This document shows, piece after piece, positions 9,312 through 62,037 of a stretch of DNA of 64,000 nt. The stretch lies in contig MLAK01000374.1 of the NCBI GenBank assembly GCA_001839685.1, positions 8,134 to 72,133 on the forward strand. Direction: 5' to 3'. Positions within the stretch are counted from its first letter, which is position 1, and every line of letters begins with the position of its first letter. Origin of the DNA: Tritrichomonas foetus (Eukaryota > Parabasalia > Tritrichomonadida > Tritrichomonadidae). The notes below the pieces were generated by a model, which was not told the origin of the DNA, searched no databases, and saw nothing but the letters and a program-made list of their open reading frames with translations. A program made the translations under genes and the position numbers.

Positions 9312-9319
9312 CGATAAAC
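9312..9319. repeat. Target site duplication, left (copy 1)
   Basis: CGATAAAC directly precedes the element and is repeated exactly at 10416-10423 directly after it. Confidence 0.9.
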
Positions 9320-9697
9320 AGATGTATACAAACTAACTAGCTCTAGATGTAGAAGACTATTGAGAGATCTAAATGNATAATTGTTGATATTATTGTCATC
9401 TAAATATTATTTAATTGTAATCCTATTAATAATATATAAATATTATAATTTAAAAATCAAGATACAGAGAAAACCAAATCCAAAAAAAAATTGTGAGAAA
9501 AAAATAAACCCCACAGAAATTTCTGAGAATTATTGAGATAAAAAGTGATTTTATAGCATTAATATCTTGATTATTTCTTATCATAAATCGTGCTTTTTAT
9601 TATCATATGACCCTCCATCGAAAATTATAATGTTTTCCAAAATACAAAAATGAAGTATAAAAAAAATATTAATAATTTTGATATAAATAAAAAAAAT

Positions 9698-9913
9698 TTA
9701 GGCATCAATGAGAAGATTACGAATGTTTTGCCATCTAATTGGCGAGTCATCAGAAAATTCACTTGGCATCGAGTCTGGAAAAAAACATATTGGATTCCAT
9801 TTTTCTTGATTTGGTCTTTCAATCGTTGTATCTGTATCCCTGCTTGAGAATGTGCTGTTGAGGACTGCCAGTCTATTTTCTTCATATACTAAAATTTTAT
9901 GACAGAAAAGATT
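9698..9913 (-). pseudogene. 3' coding relic inside element copy 1
   Basis: An open frame of 71 codons plus TAA but without a start ATG. It reads as ordinary protein (VYEENRLAVLNSTFSSRD, ending WQNIRNLLIDA). Copy 2 keeps the same frame and stop with two visible amino-acid differences in this stretch (E/D and I/F). I take it as the C-terminal remnant of the element's former gene. An overlapping 86-codon ATG frame (9625-9885) ends in hydrophobic AT-rich translation and is judged spurious. Confidence 0.5.
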
Positions 9914-10206
9914 TCAATACATTCTTATTTGTCAAATGGAAATTGAATTAATTCAACATCACTGAGTTAAAACTATCAAAATTTTCGCGATTTTTAATTA
10001 AAAATCGATAGAAGAAGTGTAAATAGAATTATGGGAAGCAGTATTATAATCTTTATGATTCTTGGAAAAAAAGCTTCTCACAATTTTTTTTTAGGCTTTC
10101 TCCAAAATCGCTCTTTTTTCGGTTTAATTGTTGCAAAATTTCAAAACTATGAATAAATATGGCTCATAACTATAAAATATAGATTTAACAATTGACTGAA
10201 AGCTGT

Positions 10207-10305
10207 TCACCCGAAAACTGAAACAATAGCTTCTTCAGAATCATTTTCGAAATATTTGTGAATTCGACCATTTGCGAAGTTTGCGATAAGGGAAATTTTC
10301 GTCAT
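10207..10305 (-). pseudogene. 5' coding relic inside element copy 1
   Basis: A 32-codon ATG frame starting MTKISLIANFANGRIHKYF and ending EEAIVSVFG before TGA. It is identical in copy 2. It reads like a protein N-terminus and is on the same strand as the 3' relic, about 290 bp away, as expected for an internally deleted element gene. Confidence 0.5.
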
Positions 10306-10415
10306 TCTTTTAGCTATTTGGGTTTTGATTTTTGACTGATGGTATTAAGTAATACTGATGATAAGGATCATTTGAGTGATTTCGTACGTTAAGACTATTT
10401 GGTTTGTATACATCT

Positions 10416-10423
10416 CGATAAAC
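10416..10423. repeat. Target site duplication, right (copy 1)
   Basis: CGATAAAC, an exact copy of 9312-9319. Confidence 0.9.
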
Positions 10424-10452
10424 TTTCTATTTTCAATTAAAATCTGGATAAA

Positions 10453-10457
10453 TCACA
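10453..10457 (+). promoter_or_regulatory. Initiator TCACA of the MT-A70 gene
   Basis: TCACA 8 nt before ATG 10465, only about 38 bp from the end of the transposable element. Any promoter element further upstream must lie inside the element. Confidence 0.65.
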
Positions 10458-10464
10458 TTTCTGA

Positions 10465-60925: not shown

Positions 60926-60933
60926 GTTTCATC
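60926..60933. repeat. Target site duplication, left (copy 2)
   Basis: GTTTCATC directly before the element, repeated exactly at 62030-62037. Confidence 0.9.
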
Positions 60934-61043
60934 AGATGTATACAAACCAAATAGTCTTAACGTACGAAATCACTAAAATGATCCTTATCATCAGTATTAC
61001 TTAATACCATCAGTCAAAAATCAAAACCCAAATAGCTAAAAGA

Positions 61044-61142
61044 ATGACGAAAATTTCCCTTATCGCAAACTTCGCAAATGGTCGAATTCACAAATATTTC
61101 GAAAATGATTCTGAAGAAGCTATTGTTTCAGTTTTCGGGTGA
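61044..61142 (+). pseudogene. 5' coding relic inside element copy 2
   Basis: A 32-codon frame starting MTKISLIANFANGRIHKYF, identical to that in copy 1. Likely the N-terminus of a former element-encoded protein. Confidence 0.5.
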
Positions 61143-61435
61143 ACAGCTTTCAGTCAATTGTTAAATCTATTTTTTATAGTTATGAGCCATATTTATTCAT
61201 AGTTTTGAAATTTTGCAACAATTAAACCGAAAAAAGAGCGATTTTGGAGAAAGCATAAAAAAAAATTGTGAGAAGCTTTTTTTCCAAGAATCATAAAGAT
61301 TATAACACTGCTTCCCATAATTCTATTTACACTTCTTCTATCGATTTTTAATTAAAAATCGCGAAAATTTTGATAGTTTTAACTCAGTGATGTTGAATTA
61401 ATTCAATTTCCATTTGACAAATATGAATGTATTGA

Positions 61436-61651
61436 AATCTTTTCTGTCATAAAATTTTAGTATATGAAGAAAATAGACTGGCAGTCCTCAACAGCACATT
61501 CTCAAGCAGGGATACAGATACAACGATTGAAAGACCAAATCAAGAAAAATGGAATCCAATATGTTTTTTTCCAGACTCGATGCCAAGTGACTTTTCTGAT
61601 GACTCGCCATTTAGATGGCAAAACATTCGTAATCTTCTCATTGATGCCTAA
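61436..61651 (+). pseudogene. 3' coding relic inside element copy 2
   Basis: Open for 71 codons up to TAA, without a start ATG, protein-like throughout (VYEENRLAVLNSTFSSRD … FRWQNIRNLLIDA). An overlapping 86-codon ATG frame (61464-61724) ends in translated AT-rich DNA and is probably not real. Confidence 0.5.
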
Positions 61652-62029
61652 ATTTTTTTTATTTATATCAAAATTATTAATATTTTTTTTATACTTCATT
61701 TTTGTATTTTGGAAAACATTATAATTTTCGATGGAGGGTCATATGATAATAAAAAGCACGATTTATGATAAGAAATAATCAAGATATTAATGCTATAAAA
61801 TCACTTTTTATCTCAATAATTCTCAGAAATTTCTGTGGGGTTTATTTTTTTCTCACAATTTTTTTTTGGATTTGGTTTTCTCTGTATCTTGATTTTTAAA
61901 TTATAATATTTATATATTATTAATAGGATTACAATTAAATATTTTTTAGATGACAATAATATCAACAATTATTCATTTAGATCTCTCAATAGTCTTCTAC
62001 ATCTAGAGCTAGTTAGTTTGTATACATCT

Positions 62030-62037
62030 GTTTCATC
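62030..62037. repeat. Target site duplication, right (copy 2)
   Basis: GTTTCATC, an exact copy of 60926-60933. Confidence 0.9.

Follow-up and report, generated by a model that had tools for sequence, protein, structure and literature searches.

Which kind of transposon gave rise to the 1,096-bp element that occurs twice in a 64,000-nt stretch of contig MLAK01000374.1 of Tritrichomonas foetus (hereafter the window, within which all positions are numbered), and what could have moved a sequence that encodes no working transposase? With a probability of roughly 0.92, we read the element as a non-autonomous, internally deleted cut-and-paste transposon of the P superfamily that would be mobilised in trans by a P-type transposase. 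Membership in this superfamily rests on the transposase core, the length of the target duplication and the inverted repeats, and was defined without requiring a THAP domain. An N-terminal THAP domain is usual in animal P transposases, where it is an accessory feature.

Copy A occupies positions 9320–10415 (minus strand, taking the direction of its gene remnant as its strand), and sequence comparison places the 8-bp target duplication CGATAAAC at 9312–9319 and, as an exact repeat, at 10416–10423. Copy B, of equal length and inverted relative to copy A (60934–62029, its gene remnant reading on the plus strand), has a duplication of its own, GTTTCATC, at 60926–60933 and 62030–62037. At the composition of the window, two flanks would share 8 bases by chance with a probability of about 4e-5. 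The copies are unlike at 10 of 1,096 positions, i.e., nine bases and one N (at 9375). Thus, an earlier note on this DNA, made from the sequence alone, correctly described an intact element with a perfect duplication and a second, inverted copy of about 99% identity. The left end of copy A, AGATGTATACAAAC (9320–9333, plus strand), is matched perfectly over 14 bp by the right end (10402–10415, minus strand), and over 21 bp the match is 90%. Further inward lies a perfect 18-nt pair, a putative subterminal inverted repeat with its left arm, AAAAAAAAATTGTGAGAA, at 9482–9499 (plus strand) and its right arm at 10075–10092 (minus strand); none of 500 first-order shuffles produced such a repeat. The combination of terminal and subterminal inverted repeats is a trait of the P superfamily.

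Searches of the T. foetus assembly (63.7 Mb, 1,064 contigs) showed that the 1,096-bp form has spread to some hundreds of copies. All of the best 40 of 615 candidates, which were scored against the whole element, cover positions 1–1096 with 99–100% identity. Patterns of the two ends, allowing for up to three mismatches, were found 497 times (left) and 544 times (right) genome-wide, and reversed control patterns not once. The ends listed (100 right, 81 of 100 left) could be joined into 58 pairs, 31 of which span exactly 1,096 bp, 19 more 1,077–1,103 bp and eight 1,249–1,260 bp. As the pairing drew on these listed ends alone, ends left unpaired give no indication of longer elements. Of three such places that were checked, two (L050 and L051) are ordinary 1,096-bp copies and one (L052) meets a contig end. 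The mean pairwise difference among eleven 1,096-bp copies is 0.68% (range 0.09–1.46%); as seven of these were top-ranked, the whole family may be more diverse. The end counts and this divergence support the suggestion of the earlier note that the family is recently mobile and possibly abundant, with genomic copies that share their ends.

Target sites were compared for 30 elements, including a 27-bp remnant, for which both ends were read. An exact 8-bp duplication, as is typical of the P superfamily (7–8 bp), flanks 27 of the 30, which also answers the question whether the flanking 8-mers match in other copies; the exceptions are L007 with 9 bp, L051 without a duplication, and the copy on contig C546, whose right end is eroded. 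Twenty-six duplication sites appear to lean towards the weak palindrome RnTnnAnY, in a genome that is AT-rich. Since the flanks of 27 insertions, some of them short, have no mutual similarity at E≤1e-10, the insertions are independent of each other. The 27-bp remnant (L045:1490–1516, contig C475) consists of 13 nt from one end fused to 14 nt from the other, is enclosed by intact 8-bp duplications, and looks like the footprint of an excision or of an extreme internal deletion. A genome search for further end-to-end remnants, in which 10 nt of each end had to be perfect and 0–24 nt could lie between them, revealed none, and the 27-nt pattern with up to three mismatches matched C475 alone.

Insight into the ancestry of the family came from two coding-looking pieces in each element, which lie in different frames but are both read from the right end inward. 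One, the start piece MKKIDWQSSTAHSQAGIQIQRLKDQIKK, represents the first ∼28 codons of a transposase gene (9802–9885 in copy A, minus strand), and the other ends with ...NIRNLLIDA* and represents the last ∼35 codons with the stop (9698–9805, minus strand). In the 1,260-bp form (L053) the start piece runs on as a coiled coil, and the forms at L029 and L034 keep more of the gene end. Among the best 150 of 507 candidates scored with a 75-aa start piece, 22 matches comprise at least 73 residues, one comprises 56 and 127 comprise 28–30; a 92-aa end piece (best 150 of 514 candidates scored) yielded 12 matches over at least 75 residues. Contig C546 is the only one among the scored matches with both pieces near-complete (73/75 and 92/92) and a long stretch between them, and in C456 parts of the two (56/75 and 80/92) directly adjoin each other. 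The C546 stretch of about 1,200 bp (minus strand) can be read as a single gene, interrupted by an in-frame TAA and frame-damaged further on; the left end of the C546 copy is that of the family and its right end lacks the last bases. Compared with this gene, 1,015 nt are absent from the 1,096-bp form. The junction, at which 4 nt (GAAA) overlap, was mapped on copy B and falls at the same place in copy A (9802–9805, minus strand). The 1,260-bp form carries a separate deletion with a 2-nt overlap, and L029 and L034 a third one, the junction of which is located only approximately. Relative to the homologue P0006, C546 has probably undergone deletion itself, as it is without the stretch that holds the catalytic E. 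Internally deleted copies of 0.5–2.8 kb are known for the P element (PMC7776569, in excerpt). Accordingly, the statement that the element carries no transposase is right in that no working one is present, but the retained first and last codons of the gene had gone unseen. Likewise, longer copies with the same ends do exist, as the earlier note had envisaged, but among the scored matches only C546, with its broken gene and eroded right end, keeps a long stretch of the transposase gene between near-complete start and end pieces.

A 219-aa piece of the parental gene on C546 scores above the cut-offs of both PF12017 and PF21787, as does the homologue P0001, and these two proteins thereby show the P-type helix-turn-helix and RNase H core of a P-superfamily transposase. 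In the other nine homologues scanned, the PF12017 cut-off is passed by P0006 and P0008 and that of PF21787 by none; P0002 passes neither. In P transposases, a split RNase H with a D-D-E triad surrounds an inserted GTP-binding domain; this domain itself gave no Pfam match in the 10 homologues. Hand-picked candidate catalytic motifs of P0006 are D169, D239 and E459, the last in the part before which C546 stops, and a predicted model of P0006 aligns to structure 6p5a over residues 61–492. Two cysteines precede the first catalytic D in P0006, two in P0008 and five in P0002. No THAP domain was matched at E≤1 in the 10 homologues, which are mostly fragments and of which only P0002, P0006 and P0008 keep the N-terminus; such a domain may sit on a spliced upstream exon.

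Taken together, we conclude that the parental element bore a P-type transposase gene, which started near the right end and pointed inward, and that internal deletions such as those mapped against C546 gave rise to short forms in which both ends are preserved. We envisage that a P-type transposase provided in trans would bind the 14-bp ends and the subterminal sites, excise the element and join it to target DNA, whereby strand transfers 8 bp apart would generate the 8-bp duplication. Several observations weigh against this model. Movement itself was not observed, and it is from sequence that we infer mobilisation of the short copies in trans. The parental piece passes the PF21787 cut-off only narrowly; P0003 stays below the cut-off of PF12017 and P0006 below that of PF21787, and P0002 has no P-type match at E≤1. 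The C546 gene is broken by a stop and by frame damage, and the P0006 part with the catalytic E is missing from it; an intact transposase with these ends was not found among the scored matches of the gene-piece and P0006 searches of the assembly. The P0006 model is weak, with a mean predicted local distance difference test (pLDDT) score of 54; in the ranking of Foldseek the P element is outside the top 50, with chains of ISCth4, RAG and Transib first, and it takes first place only once the best 1,000 chains have been realigned. Finally, a THAP domain was not seen, and the C546 open reading frame (ORF) opens with a coiled coil right after an in-frame stop.

The earlier note had taken the 8-bp duplication as a sign of the hAT superfamily, in which case the element would be a hAT-type miniature inverted-repeat transposable element. 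Duplications of this length are indeed a hAT trait but not a specific one, and the genome does contain hAT-type transposase genes (PF05699 has 11 matches, each above its cut-off). However, the P-type parental gene largely refutes this assignment, which we regard as wrong in all but a very small fraction of probability: no hAT family appeared at E≤10 in the parental core or the end piece, and the ORFs of four hAT loci, one of them consisting largely of Ns, lack meaningful similarity to both (best E of 8.5 for the core and 2.4 for the end piece). These hAT-type genes lie at L046–L049, and mariner-like ORFs adjoin L047 and L049 by eye. An origin from Mutator-like elements (TvMULE), for which duplications of 9–14 bp and a MULE transposase would be expected, is at odds with the 8-bp duplications, and no MULE family was found at E≤10.

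If the element belongs to the P superfamily, its source may be extinct or it may have been borrowed. That the copies are a fossil burst would fit the broken gene and eroded end of C546 and an assembly in which no intact copy was found, and yet the eleven copies differ by that mean of 0.68% only and other P-type frames are still open. Moreover, the 63.7 Mb searched amount to less than half of a published T. foetus assembly of 148.7 Mb (PMC11415386, in excerpt), so that an intact parent may simply be missing; on balance we consider extinction of the source rather unlikely. The P0006 search of the assembly returned C546 and 13 other P-type places, among them C887, C310, C532 and C745, where P-type frames are open over 608–826 codons. 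These genes are possible sources of transposase, and the copies could have been moved by such a distantly related family of the same genome instead of their own parent family. Against this stands an identity to P0006 of only 26–30%, and we consider this scenario even less probable than a fossil burst.

The name of P.1N1, a family of Trichomonas vaginalis, contains N1, which we take to stand for non-autonomous. P.1N1 is P-type, has 164 annotated copies and resembles our element as a P-type family in a parabasalid, according to its listing in a table (PMC7845603, in excerpt). P elements in parabasalids are thus already implied, and the T. foetus element represents a new family, though of a known kind, that will not surprise a specialist; a literature search for P elements together with Trichomonas or Tritrichomonas gave no title on P elements in trichomonads, from which we draw no wider claim of absence. 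The Drosophila P element is similar in its 8-bp duplications, inverted ends, subterminal inverted repeats, promoter insertions and many deleted copies (PMC7776569, in excerpt), as well as in the fold of the homologous transposase according to the predicted model. It differs in its 31-bp ends, compared with 14 bp here, whereas the T. foetus element stands apart by one deletion form in hundreds of copies and by the THAP domain not being seen. The P-like element of zebrafish THAP9 is similar in its ends of 13 bp, its subterminal inverted repeats of 12 bp, its 8-bp duplications and its multiple internally deleted copies (PMC7776569, in excerpt), although it encodes the THAP9 protein and no THAP domain was seen in the T. 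foetus homologues. Other DNA transposons of parabasalids have different duplications: 10–14 bp in the available part of the TvMULE table (PMC2725143), and about 4, 15 or 25 bp for IS481EU (PMC10045372, in excerpt).

Besides the simple copies, there is a second population of ∼2.0–2.2 kb, in which a unit B of ∼0.9 kb is joined to the 1,096-bp element (A) with the facing ends trimmed. The outer ends of unit B, which are inverted, are alike at 28 of 29 bases, and a complete second end occurs only in L031, the interior of which is a gap. The B-type 15-mer AGATGTATACAAACA was found at 50 places; removal of one chance match and two tandem 14-mers leaves 47 candidate B-type ends. Their number agrees with the surplus of right ends in the genome-wide counts (544 − 497 = 47). 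Twenty stretches around AGATGTATACAAACA places yielded 16 elements with both ends, and the remaining four comprise a chance match (L028), a copy cut by a contig end (L030), a B-type end only (L032) and tandem 14-mers (L036). All 16 are composites that run from a B-type end to the right end of the 1,096-bp element (e.g., L022:135–2133), and because each carries its own 8-bp duplication, the two fused parts move together. Two of the 16, L034 and L031, have been rearranged further. Solo units B were not detected, as no two B-type ends listed face each other ∼0.9 kb apart. The apparently THAP-less transposase lineage makes it possible to ask where in the enzyme the ends are recognised. Tentatively, and at somewhat less than even odds, a parabasalid P branch without THAP may recognise the 14-bp ends by another part of the protein, with B and A elements that share these 14 bp having fused to move as a composite.

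The chance match (L028:5813–5827, contig C9) lies inside a 2,774-codon host ORF and encodes “CLYTS”; by eye, similar short words recur in the protein. At L036:2287–2328 (contig C101), three terminal-repeat 14-mers, one with a mismatch, follow each other head to tail, next to a single left end of the element. The L034/L041 composite copy (contig C345) contains a 184-aa ORF with a zinc-finger-like CxxC...HxxC start and a DGTT motif. This ORF was an early lead and is now regarded as a distinct sequence within that one copy. Elsewhere in the genome it is matched three times, each time in part; no Pfam match came near a cut-off, none of 28 candidate proteins was a relative at E≤0.001, and its five PDB matches, all to alphavirus envelope-protein chains (best E 0.02), were taken as chance.

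For T. foetus, a parasite of cattle, this adds a defined P-type family of recent spread and high copy number, with a tendency to lie 5′ of genes; it could account for differences between strains. In flanks longer than 1 kb with an ORF untouched by the insertion, 20 of 26 face the 5′ end of the ORF, compared with 245 of 600 random intergenic points; the sample is small and non-random, and three further flanks touch an ORF. This intergenic null replaced a cruder one, in which five insertions with ORFs on both sides were set against 300 random points, mostly in ORFs. Drosophila P elements are likewise frequent around promoters (PMC7776569, in excerpt). In the window, an ORF for an MT-A70 methyltransferase starts 49 bp beyond the end of copy A (10416–10464), which may therefore affect the start region of that gene, and copy B sits between two ORF starts at distances of 203 bp (an RRM protein) and 102 bp.
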